From a virus: 32,137 bases of DNA. Location: IMG/VR virus record IMGVR_UViG_3300042516_000813, positions 1 to 32,137 of that record. One strand, 5' to 3'. Positions within the stretch are counted from its first letter, which is position 1; each line of letters begins with the position of its first letter. Below the pieces are notes generated by a model. The model searched no databases. It had not been told where the DNA came from and saw only the letters and a list, made by a program, of their open reading frames with translations. The position numbers were made by a program, and so were the translations under genes. Of this stretch, positions 20,539 through 25,037 are shown piece after piece.

Positions 20539-20559
20539 TTACGGCTTGTGCGACTTTTT
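20525..20559. other. convergence point of the two transcription units
   Basis: The rightward and leftward genes end only 19 bases apart. A weak stem CAAGC/GCTTG (20526-20530 with 20544-20548) encloses the perfect palindrome CGTAATTACG (20534-20543), and a T5 run follows at about 20555. This could terminate the rightward unit, but the stem is short and the T-run is displaced. No T-run is seen in the leftward direction. Confidence 0.3.
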
Positions 20560-20842
20560 ATACGATGTTCTCCTTGCGTAGCTGTGCGATGGTTCTAATG
20601 ACGCCTTCGAGGTGTGCTAGTCGGACATGATCTCGATCTAGGTCGGTGTGGCTGCGCCGATCGACGGCATCGTGACAGGCGCTGCAGCTCCAAGCGCCGA
20701 GTAGATCGTCGGCCTTCATGCCCATGCCGGAGACGCCGGCCATGCGAACGTGGGCAAGCACCACGGTTTCGCTGTTGTGGGTGCAGATCTCCGGCAAGCG
20801 AATCATGCAGCCGCGGCCACGGGCTTCCTTGCGTAGATTCAT
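20558..20842 (-). CDS. DUF1364/YbcO-like putative nuclease
   Basis: A 94-residue protein of the DUF1364 family, whose E. coli prophage member YbcO is a small HNH-like nuclease encoded in nin-type regions of lambdoid phages. Family marks are present: KEARGRGCMIRLP, C20, then VVLAHVR (H31), GMGMKADDLLGAWSCSACHD (C53, C56, H57, D61) and LEGVIRTIAQL. The Cys/His set would bind a metal. It is the last gene of the leftward recombination operon and overlaps the upstream gene as ATGA, so a role in processing recombination or replication intermediates is likely. Confidence 0.8.
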   Translation of the reverse strand: MNLRKEARGRGCMIRLPEICTHNSETVVLAHVRMAGVSGMGMKADDLLGAWSCSACHDAVDRRSHTDLDRDHVRLAHLEGVIRTIAQLRKENIV

Positions 20843-21180
20843 GCGTAGTGCGCCGGGGTGAGCTCAAGCCTGTGAGTCGCAAACTCGGCGGCTGAGGTTT
20901 GTTCTCGGGTTCTAAAGAATCCGGCATGCTCTGGATGCAGGCGCATAAACCTCCGCGAATAGAAAGCGCGATAGTTGTTGTTCAGTTTGAACGACGTTAG
21001 TCCGTCGCCGCCGACGCTATCCTTTTCCCAGCGTATGCGCTCGAAGATCGCGTTTACGGAATAGTTCTTATACCCGCGATCAATCATCTGAAATGTGAAC
21101 TGAACAAAGAGCTGCCAGACTTCGGGATGTCGCCGATGAAACTCAGTAACTTGCTGGCGCATTTCTTCCTGTCTATTCAT
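20839..21180 (-). CDS. conserved hypothetical phage protein in recombination operon
   Basis: A 113-residue protein of unknown function. It has an N-terminal helix (QVTEFHRRHPEVWQLFVQFT), a YKNYSVNAIFERIRW segment and FKLNNNYRAFYSRRFMRLHP, a pattern I recognise from small proteins near nin-region genes of many phages. The basic, aromatic-rich centre (IFERIRWEK, FKLNNNYRAFYSRRFM) could bind nucleic acid; that is inference. It overlaps the gene before it by 8 bases and the gene after it by 4, so it is translated as part of the operon. Confidence 0.65.
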   Translation of the reverse strand: MNRQEEMRQQVTEFHRRHPEVWQLFVQFTFQMIDRGYKNYSVNAIFERIRWEKDSVGGDGLTSFKLNNNYRAFYSRRFMRLHPEHAGFFRTREQTSAAEFATHRLELTPAHYA

Positions 21181-21577
21181 ATCGCGGCTCCGGTATGTGA
21201 ATCCCCATCTCGGCGCAGCGCACCTCGATGAGTGTGATGTAGTCGCGGAATTCCGTCTTGGTCATCTTGCTGGATCGTTTGATCGGCTTGTGCCGTTTCC
21301 TGCCAAATCCTTCTATGACCTCAGAACCCCACATTTCGATGAGGAAGTATTCGTGCAGGTCTTCCTTGCTCCAGCCTCGCAGCGCCTCGCCGCCGCCTTC
21401 AAGGATCGACGGGTACACGACACCCCACAGAAAGGAATTCTGCTGCTCGCTGCGTCTCGGCTTGAATGCCTCGATCGTTACCTGCCAGCTCTGGCGTGCG
21501 TCGAGCCCGCGCACCAGAACGGCGACCGCGGTGGCGATCTGTTCTGGCGGCGTGCCTTTTGGGAATACCCGGCGCAT
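21173..21577 (-). CDS. ninB: NinB-like recombination protein
   Basis: A 134-residue protein, likely a counterpart of lambda NinB/Orf, a mediator that helps load recombinase at single-stranded DNA. Support: SEQQNSFLWGVVYPSILEGG, the GWSKEDLHEYFLIEMWG segment, then RSSKMTKTEFRDYITLIE and GIHIPEP at the C-terminus, which match the order of helices and ending of NinB-type proteins. The context with exonuclease and annealing protein agrees. The start at 21577 (MRRVFPKGT) overlaps the previous stop by one base; a longer open frame to 21760 is only a shadow of the neighbouring gene. Confidence 0.6.
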   Translation of the reverse strand: MRRVFPKGTPPEQIATAVAVLVRGLDARQSWQVTIEAFKPRRSEQQNSFLWGVVYPSILEGGGEALRGWSKEDLHEYFLIEMWGSEVIEGFGRKRHKPIKRSSKMTKTEFRDYITLIEVRCAEMGIHIPEPRYE

Positions 21578-21882
21578 CAGAATGGGATGGCTTTGTCGTC
21601 GTCGAAGTCGATCTTGTCCCAGTTGGCCTCGGTCAGCTCCGTGCCTTTCGGGACATCCTTCGGCACCTGCCGATCTGGGTAGCCATCCTTCGGCTTGACG
21701 GACAGGCTGAAGAACTTCGAGCCCGGTTCCTTTGCGTTCGGGCCGGCGGTCTTGACCCACGCGCTTAACCAGTATTCGACTCCGTTGATGTTAAGCGAGC
21801 CCGTGTATTCCGGATGCTTGTCACTCTTGCGCTCTCTGGCTTTGCCAAGCGTGCCGGTGTTGGTGCGGTCGTACTCTTTCAC
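21577..21882 (-). CDS. small putative single-stranded-DNA-binding protein with SSB-like C-terminal tail
   Basis: A 101-residue protein, GTG start at 21882 behind GAGG and overlapping the exonuclease stop as GTGA. The body is beta-rich (HPEYTGSLNINGVEYWLSAW, then SKFFSLSVKPKDG), compatible with a small OB-type fold. The last ten residues are DFDDDKAIPF, closely like the MDFDDDIPF tail with which bacterial SSB proteins recruit partners. Between an exonuclease and a NinB-like mediator, this makes a phage SSB or SSB mimic likely. I did not recognise a classical SSB domain in the body. Confidence 0.6.
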   Translation of the reverse strand: MKEYDRTNTGTLGKARERKSDKHPEYTGSLNINGVEYWLSAWVKTAGPNAKEPGSKFFSLSVKPKDGYPDRQVPKDVPKGTELTEANWDKIDFDDDKAIPF

Positions 21883-22484
21883 AGTCTTACCTCTTTCAGT
21901 TTCTCGGTTCGTTCAAGCAATTCGCGGGTGAAGTTCTCGACCGCCGCGGTCAGCTCAAGGATCGTCGGCTGGTCGCGCGGGACGCGGATAATGAGCAGCT
22001 TGAGCTGCTCTGGCAGCTTTGGCTGGTACACAACGTAATCGCACCAGTCGCGCCCAGTAACAGCCATCTGCCATTGCATCTGCAGGCGATGCTCTTTCGG
22101 CACCTGCCGGCTGTCGATCAGGTCGAGCATGGTGGCCGGCTGGACACACTTGATCTCGATCAGGCCATCCTCTCCCACAAGCCCGTCTGGGCTTGCCCCG
22201 GCCTCCAGCTTCGGGTGGCGGATAAAGCCTACCTCCTCCACCAGAAGCCCCGTGCGGGCGCTATAAGCGGCCCTAGCCTCGGGCTCGGTGTCTATGCCGT
22301 GCTGCATCTCGGCGCTCTTGTACGTCTCCGTAGGCTGTCCCGTAAGGCGCTCGCAGACGAGCTGCGCCATGTAGTTACGATAACCGCCGGTCGTCGAGGC
22401 CATCATCACCTTGTAGATCGAGCTCGCGGTGACGAGCGCGAGCCGCTGACTATGCCACTCTGTGGTACGCTGGAGCTCAGTCAT
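21879..22484 (-). CDS. YqaJ/lambda-type alkaline exonuclease
   Basis: A 201-residue 5'-3' double-strand exonuclease of the lambda Exo/YqaJ family, which makes the single strand used by the annealing protein. Motifs: WHSQRLALVTASSI (W10, S21), HGIDTEPEARAAY (E67, E69), and the PD-(D/E)XK core D100-x9-E110-x-K112 in ASPDGLVGEDGLIEIKC, with the same spacing as D119, E129, K131 of lambda Exo. A conserved QMQWQMAVTGRDWCDYVVY follows. AAGGAG lies before the ATG, which overlaps the ERF stop as ATGA. Confidence 0.9.
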   Translation of the reverse strand: MTELQRTTEWHSQRLALVTASSIYKVMMASTTGGYRNYMAQLVCERLTGQPTETYKSAEMQHGIDTEPEARAAYSARTGLLVEEVGFIRHPKLEAGASPDGLVGEDGLIEIKCVQPATMLDLIDSRQVPKEHRLQMQWQMAVTGRDWCDYVVYQPKLPEQLKLLIIRVPRDQPTILELTAAVENFTRELLERTEKLKEVRL

Positions 22485-23017
22485 GTCAGCTCCTTCTTGC
22501 GCTTGGTGAACTCGGCGGTGGTCGCTGCGTCACGGGCAGACTCGGGCAAGGACTGGTAGAGCGCGTTCAGCTCTGCCGCGGTGTTGCAGGCGGCGATCTT
22601 GGCGACGATCGCTGGCGATGCCTTGCGGTCGCGGGCCTGTGCTGCCTCGGCGTCATCGTCGATCTGGGCGAGGCCGACGATCGCTGCGAGCGCGTACCGG
22701 CGAGCGTAAGTGATGGCGCTGCCCTGTGCCTGTGGGCTGTCATCCTTGGCGCGGATCGGTAGTTCACCGCGAATCCATTGGCCGGACTCATGCACCAGCG
22801 TCGTCAGTAGCATAATGCCGTTTGGGTTCCATTCGGTCGTCTGGATGACGGCGAGGTTGTTGGCTGCGAGCTGCTTGCGGCAGGCGTCCCAGCACGATGC
22901 GAGGTCGGCGTATTTGGACTTGAAGAACGGGTTGGCCGAGTCCTTGAGTGCGCCGGTGATGTCAGCTTGCGCCTTGGACAGGGCGGCGGCGAGTGCGCCG
23001 ATCGATTCAGATTGCAT
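22481..23017 (-). CDS. erf: ERF-family single-strand annealing protein
   Basis: A 178-residue recombinase of the ERF superfamily (as in phage P22), which anneals complementary single strands made by the adjacent exonuclease. Hallmarks: LSKAQADITGALKDSANPFF then KSKYADLASCW (residues 14-43), LLTTLVHESGQWIRGELPI (70-88) and QGSAITYARRYALAAIVGL with IDDDAEAA (98-125). The C-terminal 45 residues are helical and basic. The ATG at 23017 has GAGGAG in front; the longer open frame to 23149 runs through another small gene and is rejected. Confidence 0.9.
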   Translation of the reverse strand: MQSESIGALAAALSKAQADITGALKDSANPFFKSKYADLASCWDACRKQLAANNLAVIQTTEWNPNGIMLLTTLVHESGQWIRGELPIRAKDDSPQAQGSAITYARRYALAAIVGLAQIDDDAEAAQARDRKASPAIVAKIAACNTAAELNALYQSLPESARDAATTAEFTKRKKELT

Positions 23018-23153
23018 GCGGATTCTCCTCTGAGCGGATGAGTGCGACGGCGAGGTTGCAGGCATCGATGCGCTCCTGCTCCTCGCGCTCTTGCATTTCG
23101 AGATCGAGCTGGTGCCACCAGCTTGCGTCATCGTTTCCCCAAGGTTCATTCAT
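23007..23153 (-). CDS. 48-residue acidic helical protein
   Basis: A short gene reading MNEPWGNDDASWWHQLDLEM, then a charged helix rich in Glu and Arg and ending in SEENPHAI. An AGGAG box lies 7-8 bases before the ATG. It overlaps the preceding membrane peptide (ATGAATGA) and the start of ERF by 11 bases, placing the ERF ribosome binding site inside its last codons. The overlap pattern suggests translational coupling. The function is unknown; such peptides are common in front of phage recombination genes. Confidence 0.55.
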   Translation of the reverse strand: MNEPWGNDDASWWHQLDLEMQEREEQERIDACNLAVALIRSEENPHAI

Positions 23154-23253
23154 TGTGCGTCTCCTGACATGAGTGGCCGTCGCAGGGCTCGATCGCGGCG
23201 GCGAGTAGGTAAATCAGAACGATTCCAATCACGGCGAGTTTGCTGCGCTTCAC
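23146..23253 (-). CDS. 35-residue single-pass membrane peptide
   Basis: A GTG-started mini-gene overlapping its upstream neighbour as GTGA. It reads MKRSKLAVIGIVLIYLLAAA followed by IEPCDGHSCQETHNE, that is a basic start, one hydrophobic helix (residues 6-21) and a short polar tail with two cysteines. There is no lipobox in front of the first cysteine, so a spanin-type lipoprotein is not supported. AAGGGG precedes it at slightly long spacing. It is supported mainly by the exact overlap and by the hydrophobic pattern. Confidence 0.45.
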   Translation of the reverse strand: MKRSKLAVIGIVLIYLLAAAIEPCDGHSCQETHNE

Positions 23254-23414
23254 AGCGGCGACCCCTTGTTGTAGATGTTCTGAGCGGCCTGCAGTCCGTC
23301 TGCCTTGCCGGTGAGGTATGCAGCCTGCAGAGCGGCCGCGACGATCTCGCGGTAGTTATTTGGCAGGCAGTCGCAGATTAGCTCGATCTCTTTCATCTTG
23401 TTCTCGGGAATCAT
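23250..23414 (-). CDS. 54-residue hypothetical early protein
   Basis: An early-operon protein starting MIPENKMKEIELICDCLPNN and continuing with an alanine-rich helix (YREIVAAALQAAYLTGKADG). AGGAG lies at good spacing before the ATG at 23414, and that ATG overlaps the previous stop as ATGA; the farther upstream ATG at 23462 lies inside the neighbouring gene. No domain is recognised. Confidence 0.6.
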   Translation of the reverse strand: MIPENKMKEIELICDCLPNNYREIVAAALQAAYLTGKADGLQAAQNIYNKGSPL

Positions 23415-23716
23415 TGCAATTCTCCTGATGCGCGGTGCGCGGCTTGAAGGTAGTTCATGCAACCGATCGGGTCGGCAAAGATGTCAGCAATGCTGATGTG
23501 GTCTGGGCTTTGCGAGACAAGGATCTTGGTAAAGCAGTCCTCGCAAGTGTCCTCATCGATAGTCGGATTTGCATTGCACAGATGGCAGGTGCTGAGCAAT
23601 TCATCGCACTTTGTGCAGATAAATTCCCAGCTCATAGTGCCAGCGTTGTCCATGCAGATTGTTTCGTCGGCGATCTGTCCGTAGTTATTGCAGCCTTGGC
23701 AGTAAGCGGTGTGCAT
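23411..23716 (-). CDS. zinc-ribbon protein with four CxxC pairs
   Basis: A 101-residue early protein with CxxC pairs at residues 6/9, 34/37, 44/47 and 58/61, enough for two structural zinc sites, and a C-terminal helical part (DHISIADIFADPIGCMNYLQ). The N-terminal CQGCNNYGQ is followed by an acidic segment. It may be a small nucleic-acid- or protein-binding adaptor; the specific function is unknown. AGGAG precedes the ATG. A hairpin (23735-23750) separates it from the first gene of the operon. Confidence 0.65.
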   Translation of the reverse strand: MHTAYCQGCNNYGQIADETICMDNAGTMSWEFICTKCDELLSTCHLCNANPTIDEDTCEDCFTKILVSQSPDHISIADIFADPIGCMNYLQAAHRASGELQ

Positions 23717-23734: not shown

Positions 23735-23750
23735 GGCGGCTTATGCCGCC
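23735..23750 (-). other. intercistronic hairpin
   Basis: A perfect 6-bp stem GGCGGC/GCCGCC with a four-base loop overlaps the stop codon of the first leftward gene. In the leftward direction no T-run follows, so it is more likely an RNA stabilising or processing hairpin than a terminator. Confidence 0.35.
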
Positions 23751-23947
23751 ACCTCGTCAACTACATATCCAAAGAAACCATCATGCGGTTTGTACAGTCC
23801 TTTTTGTTCAAGGCTGCTCAACACGCCTGCAAACTGGTGCTTAGTAATACTTTCCGGTTTGGCGTTGGGCAAATAAACCCAACCGTCGCCTTCTTCCTTG
23901 TCGCGTAAGGAGGCGAGGATTTGTGTTTCAAGGGCGGTCAGTTCCAT
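23741..23947 (-). CDS. small winged-helix-like early protein
   Basis: The first gene of the leftward operon, 68 residues. LTALETQILASLRDKEEGDG, then ITKHQFAGVLSSLEQKGLYK and a short beta-like end (HDGFFGYVVDE) give the helix-helix-wing arrangement of a small winged-helix DNA-binding protein; this is a pattern inference. The ATG at 23947 has CAGGAG in front and lies about 30 bases after the predicted transcription start. It could regulate early transcription along with the divergently encoded HTH protein. Confidence 0.55.
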   Translation of the reverse strand: MELTALETQILASLRDKEEGDGWVYLPNAKPESITKHQFAGVLSSLEQKGLYKPHDGFFGYVVDEVAA

Positions 23948-23970: not shown

Positions 23971-24021
23971 CTGTCAACGGTTGTGATCATGACGGGTATC
24001 TCCAGACCTGTCAACACTTGT
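23971..24021. repeat. two direct repeats, putative operators
   Basis: CTGTCAACGGTTGT (23971-23984) and CTGTCAACACTTGT (24008-24021) agree in 12 of 14 bases and are 37 bases apart. One covers the expected start of the leftward transcript, the other lies between the two -35 boxes. Each has partial inner symmetry (CAA..TTG), as expected of repressor sites. Confidence 0.45.
23986..24014 (-). promoter_or_regulatory. leftward promoter of the recombination operon
   Basis: On the minus strand: TTGACA (24014-24009), a 17-base spacer, then CATGAT (23991-23986). The -35 box is consensus and the -10 matches 4 of 6 positions. It points at the gene starting at 23947 and is the only good sigma-70 promoter found for that operon. 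Confidence 0.6.
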
Positions 24022-24046
24022 AACCCAAAAAAGATTCCGTCATGAT
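24018..24046 (+). promoter_or_regulatory. rightward promoter of the HTH gene
   Basis: TTGTAA (24018-24023), a 17-base spacer and CATGAT (24041-24046), the mirror image of the leftward promoter. The expected transcript would start near 24053, about 18 bases before the HTH start codon. The -35 is weaker than the leftward one (4 of 6), so the leftward promoter is expected to be stronger unless activated. Confidence 0.5.
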
Positions 24047-24070
24047 GCCGGTAGTAAACACGGAGGCATC

Positions 24071-24313
24071 ATGGACATTGACCAGTTGATAAAGAAGTAC
24101 GGCAACCAGAGTGCGGTGGCGCGCAGATTCGGCGTCACTCGCGCATACGTTTCGCGTTGGGTGAAGAACGGGCGAGTGCCGGAGCGGTATGCGCTGCGCG
24201 AGCTGGCCGGTGAGGTGGTTGAAGAGCTGCAGGAAAGCGAGCAGAGCCGATCGATGCAGCGGCTGATCCGCAAGATCAAGGCGGGACTGCGACCGCAGCC
24301 GGATCAGGCGTGA
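24071..24313 (+). CDS. Cro/YdaS-like helix-turn-helix regulator
   Basis: An 80-residue DNA-binding protein. GNQSAVARRFGVTRAYVSRW followed by VKNGRVPERYALRELA (residues 11-46) is a classical Cro/YdaS-type HTH with the usual W-x-x-G-x-x-P ending. The C-terminal half is a charged helix. It is transcribed away from the early operon across the dyad-symmetric control region and probably represses or balances the two divergent promoters. CGGAGG precedes the ATG. No large CI-type repressor with a protease domain is seen in the window, so whether the phage is temperate is open. Confidence 0.8.
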   Translation: MDIDQLIKKYGNQSAVARRFGVTRAYVSRWVKNGRVPERYALRELAGEVVEELQESEQSRSMQRLIRKIKAGLRPQPDQA

Positions 24314-24339
24314 TTGTTGAGAACCCCAGAAACGACAAA

Positions 24340-24386
24340 CCCCCGGCTGGCGGGGGCTTGACGGTTGGCGTTGCACCAACTATTTT
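24340..24386 (+). terminator. tandem hairpins after the HTH gene, candidate terminators
   Basis: The first hairpin is CCCCCG-GCTGG-CGGGGG (24340-24356), strong but without a T-run. The second is GTTGG/CCAAC (24364-24368 with 24376-24380), weaker but followed by TATTTT. Together they could stop or pause transcription from the HTH promoter before the packaging genes. Confidence 0.45.
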
Positions 24387-24421
24387 CCAAGCGGGGACTT
24401 GGTGATGTGGACTCTACTGGA

Positions 24422-24478
24422 CTGTTCTAGTCGAGTCAAACACCGAATCCCCTCGGCTGTTCTGGTCGGGGAAACCAC
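24422..24478 (+). repeat. tandem imperfect repeat R1 in leader
   Basis: CTGTTCTAGTCGAG (24422-24435) and CTGTTCTGGTCGGG (24457-24470) differ at two positions, 35 bases apart. Each sits in the loop and right arm of a hairpin whose left arm has changed in step: GACTC/GAGTC in copy 1 and TCCCC/GGGGA in copy 2. Confidence 0.5.
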
Positions 24479-24536
24479 GCGCAGAGTCAGCTTAAACCCA
24501 CACCGGGGCAGTCAGCCTGTGGGCGCGCAGCGTCAG
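24478..24536 (+). repeat. imperfect repeat R2 in leader
   Basis: CGCGCAGAGTCAG (24478-24490) and CGCGCAGCGTCAG (24524-24536) agree in 12 of 13 bases, 46 bases apart. Both CGCGC segments can pair with nearby GCGCG sequences (24523-24527 or 24544-24548), giving alternative folds around the CCCACA/TGTGGG hairpin. Confidence 0.5.
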
Positions 24537-24584
24537 TCGGGAAGCGCGAATGACAGCAGGGAAACCTGTGAAAAGTAGCCGACA

Positions 24585-24669
24585 GCGGATGGCTCCGTCA
24601 GTCATCTCCGCACGAATGAACCTAGGCGTACTCCGTCTGGACACCGTGCGGATTCACCATCAGTCATCT
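24585..24669 (+). repeat. imperfect repeat R3 in leader
   Basis: GCGGAT plus TCAGTCATCT occur twice with the same order and nearly the same spacing: 24585-24590 with 24598-24607, and 24648-24653 with 24660-24669. Period 62-63 bases. The GCGGAT of the first copy pairs with a downstream TCCGC; the GCGG of the second lies in the right arm of the competing hairpin. Confidence 0.5.
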
Positions 24670-24701: not shown

Positions 24702-25037
24702 ATGGGAGACGAGTACCAATACACCCCGAGCGCCGGGAAGTCCGGCCCGCAGGGACAGCCGGACGACCGGGTAGCGAGTCTGATCAGGCAATCATCGGAG
24801 AGCTGGCAGCAGTCGATGCGTGAGAACCCGCTAAACCGACTCCGCTACCTTGACGCTAAACTCGCCCGCATCGGCCTCGACAGTCCAGAGATCGAGCAGA
24901 TGAAGGCCAGAGCGGGTGAGCTGATCCGCGAGTTGCCACCGGCTGACGTACTTGGTGACCCCGGTTGCGTGGGGCTGGTGCGGCAGTTATTCGGCGAACG
25001 TGGCGTGCAGCGATTGCGAGAGAGGGTAAAGCGATGA
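24702..25037 (+). CDS. hypothetical protein downstream of structured leader
   Basis: A 111-residue hypothetical protein with a disordered polar N-terminus (GDEYQYTPSAGKSGPQGQPD) and a helical rest (ENPLNRLRYLDAKLARIGL, EIEQMKARAGELIRELP, GLVRQLFGERGVQRLRERVK). No family is recognised. AGGAG lies 9 bases before the ATG. Being the first gene after the leader, it is the direct target of any control exerted there. Its stop overlaps the next start as ATGA. Confidence 0.65.
   Translation: MGDEYQYTPSAGKSGPQGQPDDRVASLIRQSSESWQQSMRENPLNRLRYLDAKLARIGLDSPEIEQMKARAGELIRELPPADVLGDPGCVGLVRQLFGERGVQRLRERVKR

Follow-up and report, generated by a model that had tools for sequence, protein, structure and literature searches.

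Divergent promoters beside a Cro-like gene in an uncultivated, probably lytic phage, and the structured RNA next to them

Between positions 23971 and 24046 of the window (i.e. the whole 32,137-base stretch analysed here, which is IMG/VR virus record IMGVR_UViG_3300042516_000813 of an uncultivated phage), two promoters point away from each other beside a gene for a small helix-turn-helix (HTH) protein, an arrangement that the sequence-only reading had taken for a compressed immunity region. This raises the question whether the locus is a lysogeny switch or an early control region of another kind, and which of its repeats a regulator would use. At 32 kb, compared with about 35-38 kb in relatives, this record does not cover the complete genome, so that a repressor or integrase gene of this phage may be missing from it. 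No relatives of the promoter region were found at the DNA level among named phages, to which the HTH protein itself gave only short matches of 39-46% identity. Querying with the HTH protein retrieved 13 viral loci, and querying with a profile of its family 74. Promoter and operator conservation was counted in 22 listed loci, here called family A, while gene order, integrases and repressors were compared in 12 cassette-bearing records of up to 38 kb, which had been picked before the RNA/DUF1376 pattern described below was known.

Leftwards, a -35 box TTGACA (24009-24014, minus strand) is combined with a -10 box CATGAT (23986-23991, minus strand), and rightwards TTGTAA (24018-24023, plus strand) with CATGAT (24041-24046, plus strand; predicted start near 24053). 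Both spacers are 17 bases and the promoters are symmetric about 24016, so that the pair is present in the letters just as it had been described. The leftward -35 box is identical in all 22 family-A loci, in each of which a -10 hexamer follows at a spacing of 16-18 (TATGAT in the nearest relatives), while 21 of the 22 have a rightward spacer of 17. Because these elements and spacers are kept, both promoters can be regarded as conserved features, whereas the flanks and the leftward open reading frame (ORF) vary. They are presumably of the sigma-70 type in both directions, with predicted activity. A phage-type RNA polymerase (PF00940) that might read them was found in none of the 12 records, which is a weak negative, as the control genomes were also without a match. 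Among relatives the layout has repeatedly been rewired, with divergent control beside a Cro-like gene being retained. In loci L095-L117, for instance, interlocked divergent promoters lie upstream of the HTH gene, with TTGACA-N6-TGTCAA inside AGGATAG...CTATCCT (mirrored -10 boxes), and the ATG of the HTH gene is so near the -10 box that the transcript looks leaderless.

The HTH gene to the right (24071-24313, plus strand, with GGAGG 5 bases before the ATG) is a real ORF for 80 residues (P0001), and its earlier assignment to the HTH class was borne out. The protein passes the Pfam cut-off for YdaS (PF15943; 32.6 bits, cut-off 30) and falls below that for P22_Cro (PF14549; 26.3 bits, cut-off 30.2), it matches transcription regulators in PHROGs, and a sequence search against solved structures returns Cro proteins. 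The best Foldseek neighbours of its AF2 model (pLDDT 88) are the Cro proteins of N15, P22 and Xfaso1, with 0.9 Å over 37 columns for N15 Cro and 0.9 Å over 42 for P22 Cro, at Foldseek E-values of only 0.1-0.7 and with the C-terminal half left without a match. Judged by profile, solved-structure search and fold prediction, it is a Cro-type HTH protein.

As to the sites on which such a protein could act, the window holds a direct repeat CTGTCAACnnTTGT at 23971-23984 and 24008-24021 (12 of 14 bases, p=0.007, post hoc), in which the CTGTCAAC-N2-TTGT pattern noticed earlier is exact. TGTCAANNNTTG occurs in the window at these two places only (0.26 expected), and TGTCAA-based repeats are conserved among relatives. 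Further copies of TGTCAAC (26791 and 26831) were discarded as operators, being in or near ORFs and without promoter context. The right-hand copy belongs to a central site, OC (TGTCAACACTTGTAA, 24009-24023), which spans both -35 boxes and departs from the palindrome TGTCAA-N3-TTGACA at 2 positions. Its first 12 bases are near-invariant in family A, as is TGTCAACACTTG. The conservation of OC is partly owed to the two -35 boxes alone, but a second constraint is hinted at by the rightward -35 box, which begins with TTGT or TTGC throughout and never with the consensus TTGA. The left-hand copy belongs to O1 (TGTCAACGGTTGTGA, 23972-23986), which lies at the predicted leftward start (about 23979) and abuts the leftward -10 box at a fixed distance. 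Only TGTCAACG is widely kept in O1, and its TTGT half is missing in several relatives.

Neither site is a good palindrome in family A (2 mismatches to the ideal), and co-variation between them gave no signal (p=0.26). It could then be argued that OC is just two abutting -35 boxes, that the TCAACG of O1 is an element of the leftward 5' end or the site of another factor, and that the HTH protein acts elsewhere. In line with this, TCAACG lies 25-48 bases to the left of TGTCAA in 57 of 88 unique regions (0.05 in shuffles), across many recognition helices, and in most relatives the 5' hairpin of the downstream RNA is followed by a complementary UGUCAA. As far as O1 is concerned the point is well taken: an element kept under many recognition helices may not be the site of the HTH protein, and its independence of the HTH type makes OC the better candidate. 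As a whole this explanation nevertheless seems rather unlikely, since two -35 boxes would not require OC to be as near-invariant as it is (the TTGT found where TTGA would be expected being a case in point), and O1 and OC agree at 12 of 15 bases in the window. OC would thus be the best candidate operator for the Cro-like protein.

A different pair of sites was suggested by the perfect dyad that the sequence-only reading saw over the -10 boxes. The arms, ATCATGACGG (23986-23995) and CCGTCATGAT (24037-24046), are indeed exact inverted repeats in the window; it is the functional symmetry that does not hold up. In principle, one protein could bind ATCATGACGG at both promoters of the window phage, the score of the repeat being 10/10 in the window and 9/10 in L087, and a 10-bp inverted repeat within the 123-bp intergenic stretch having p=0.005 (post hoc; over 32 kb, 3.8 +/- 2.2 such repeats with a loop of at most 60 are expected and 1 is seen). 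Moreover, palindromes do cover -10 boxes under other HTH types: sister phages with the recognition helix TKGAVSQW carry GTTTA-N6-TAAAC palindromes on their -10 regions (on both sides in L039; clear on the left in L037 and L023, p 0.02-0.03 each), as is expected if this class of regulator acts on both promoters. In family A, by contrast, no palindrome is found at the -10 boxes. Its scores range from 4 to 10, with 10/10 in the window alone, and the nearest relative, L053, has an HTH protein that is 99% identical and a repeat of only 5/10 (leftward TATGAT, spacer 16). Beyond the hexamers the arms are not conserved either, and across ten clusters they are no more alike within a phage (6.3 of 20 matches) than between phages (6.28; permutation p=0.51). 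An operator pair at the -10 boxes is therefore improbable and was rejected, and by these comparisons the dyad arises by coincidence from the likeness of the two -10 hexamers.

The leftward unit offered no support for a partner regulator. Its first gene (23741-23947, minus strand; likely start the ATG at 23947, not the TTG at 23977) encodes 68 residues that had been likened to a winged-helix protein, a proposal that was dropped: neither Pfam nor PHROG families match the ORF at E 0.001 and no relatives of it were found, while unrelated ORFs hold its place in related phages. The operon continues (20558-23716, minus strand) with genes for an ERF annealing protein, a YqaJ exonuclease, NinB/Orf and a YbcO nuclease, and small ORFs. 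In the 12 records, ERF was found in 11, on the strand opposite to the HTH gene, and terminase in all 12, on the same strand as the HTH gene; wherever these two were found, the HTH gene sits between them, in a fixed gene order that has it flanked by recombination genes and by terminase. The structural genes look podovirus-like, judging from matches to tail and internal virion proteins. Integrase and S24 (CI/LexA-type) repressor genes were found in none of these records (up to 38 kb; that of the window is incomplete), nor was a divergently encoded CI-type lysogeny repressor. The structured RNA linked to the locus in many of these phages (see below) was recovered by one exact pattern from 88 IMG/VR stretches and, with the same pattern, from none of 84,980 cellular genomes, so that the phages with this RNA were not seen as prophages.

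It follows that the locus is not read as an immunity region. That the leftward unit encodes a lysogeny repressor, with the HTH protein as its Cro antagonist in a lambda-like decision between lysis and lysogeny, is very improbable and was rejected on the present data, since (for all that the divergent layout with a small Cro/YdaS-type HTH protein encoded in one direction is that of lambdoid immunity, and that YdaS has been identified as the Cro homologue of the Rac prophage (PMC5917428)) its first gene is an orphan swapped for unrelated ORFs, its operon consists of recombination genes, and neither integrase nor S24 repressor genes were found in the 12 records, nor copies of the RNA in the 84,980 cellular genomes.

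Taken with the gene order and the podovirus-like genes, the lack of integrase and S24 repressor genes in the records leads instead to a reading as early control in a phage that is probably strictly lytic. With some confidence, we regard the locus as a divergent early control region that the Cro-like protein represses, its own gene included, through OC. Host sigma-70 RNA polymerase would fire leftwards into the recombination operon and rightwards into the cro-like gene and the genes beyond. The 80-residue protein would bind OC (24009-24023) as a dimer, covering both -35 boxes and repressing (rather than activating) its own gene and the leftward operon, and it may also bind O1 at the leftward start for an additional leftward shut-off. 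The earlier idea of a regulator common to both units survives in this form, because with two divergent promoters, shared TGTCAA-type sites and an adjacent Cro-like HTH gene one protein could act both ways; the symmetric dyad as a functional site does not.

Behind the HTH gene, where it may bear on the reach of rightward transcripts, lies a G+C-rich hairpin (24336-24360), which scores as a terminator on the minus strand only (there is no U-run on the plus strand) and has a similar counterpart in relatives. A third promoter-like site, TTGACG-17-TATTTT (24358-24386, plus strand), follows; by eye, TTGACG-17-TAnnnT is also present in L002, L003, L004, L006, L054, L059, L077 and L081. It heads a stretch of about 270 nt (24393-24667, plus strand), with a 5' hairpin at 24410-24437 and then a covarying core, that is clearly a structured non-coding RNA by covariation. 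In an alignment of 27 sequences, 99.4% of cells pair and 13 pairs are changed on both sides, whereas in slid controls 29-49% of cells pair and no more than 5 pairs change in this way; the window copy alone has z=-2.9. The stretch is conserved at 78-85% even where terminase is only about 37% identical. It matches no Rfam family above its gathering threshold, and blastn found it in neither phage (50,697 records) nor plasmid records.

Several side observations concern this RNA. In the window (24410-24445) and in the corresponding part of relatives, the RNA has TGTCAA after a 5' hairpin that varies, and relatives with a DUF1376 gene start similarly. The leftward transcript has the complementary UUGACA at its predicted 5' end, which makes it attractive to suppose that its leader (CGUUGACA) pairs with UGUCAAC of the RNA; the window copy GAGUCAAAC pairs poorly, however, so that this is only an idea. 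In one copy (L031:2185-2487) a hairpin is duplicated in tandem over 30 nt (AACCCACACCGGGGCAGCCAGCCTGTGGGT), the remainder being intact. In some relatives the HTH gene and the RNA are separated by a C-5 cytosine DNA methylase-like gene (in G004, L140:4558-5970, minus strand), and one RNA-bearing relative carries a tRNA gene (L018:577-647, minus strand), of which the window has none.

In sister phages the slot of the RNA is held by a DUF1376 gene, preceded by a promoter and a 5' hairpin of the same kind, and PHROGs lists DUF1376 as a primosomal protein (its AlphaFold model, pLDDT 53, is too poor for use). The RNA occurs in 131 loci and DUF1376 in 35, never both (the loci are redundant, some being from one contig), and in the 12 records the RNA is present in 8 and DUF1376 in the remaining 4. 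The gene for a 111-residue 'MGDE' protein (24702-25037, plus strand) usually follows either of them. The RNA is therefore found where relatives carry a replication protein, and never together with it. In the two RNA-bearing genomes scanned (G004 and G008) no recognised replication protein was found, many of their ORFs being without a family and the records perhaps incomplete; DnaB was found in none of the 12 records, and GC skew was uninformative as an origin marker. Mycobacterial prophages without repA are reported to have RNA-based origins (PMC7157519), so that a replication module made of RNA deserves serious consideration here. Tentatively, and as a possibility rather than an expectation, 24393-24667 might serve a group of lytic phages as an RNA-based module for initiating replication (an origin primer or a recruiter of host replication proteins), standing in for DUF1376 at a level set by the Cro-like protein; a late-operon leader or other regulatory RNA would fit as well. 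In L059:6400-6760 and L077:6281-6700 the slot has a third kind of occupant, namely another RNA-like and G+C-rich stretch (...CTCGACATGGGTTCAATCTGTCGGC...) that differs from the RNA described above and is known from few distinct sequences; both that RNA and DUF1376 are absent nearby. The DUF1376 gene of L054, L081 and L087 contains, at about base 315-350, tandem GCGAACGCA/GCAATGC-type repeats that recall the iterons of an origin within an initiator gene.

The promoter pair adds one more case to the early control regions of Cro type, which are a familiar kind. Like the cI-cro regions of lambda, P22 and N15, it has divergent promoters with a small Cro-like HTH gene rightwards and operator-like repeats in between, and a single main Cro site is plausible, as in the single-operator switch of PY54 Cro (PMC4488713). 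Unlike in lambda, P22 and N15, no CI-like gene or integrase was found and the leftward unit consists of recombination genes, while in place of three graded operators there are weak palindromes in tandem, which are candidate sites. The HTH protein, above the Pfam cut-off for YdaS, and the DUF1376 gene that follows it in sister phages recall the ydaS region of Rac, where ydaU follows ydaS-ydaT in what we take to be a parallel. YdaS has been identified as the Cro homologue of that prophage in a letter (PMC5917428). The present locus differs from Rac in that no RacR-like divergent repressor and no YdaT were found, and in that the DUF1376 slot holds a structured RNA. The promoter series is nevertheless useful, as the recognition helix and the promoter-overlapping sites both vary naturally.

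It is the RNA neighbourhood, however, that merits more attention than the promoter pair, the RNA being widespread, strongly structured, absent from cultured phages and Rfam, and taking the place of a replication gene behind a similar promoter. Plasmid ColE1 needs an RNA, RNA II, for its replication, and to our knowledge the precedents for RNA-started replication come from plasmids and some mycobacterial prophages only. RNA-based prophage origins are described for the cluster A mycobacteriophages RedRock, Alma and LadyBird, whose prophages lack repA (PMC7157519). The RNAs of these phages and of ColE1 are experimentally required for replication, whereas the present phages look lytic, their RNA matches no Rfam family and its role in replication is putative. 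The likeness lies in a non-coding RNA carried by phages that lack the replication protein of their close relatives, and if DNA replication does start from this RNA, O and primosomal proteins would have an RNA-based alternative in lytic phages.
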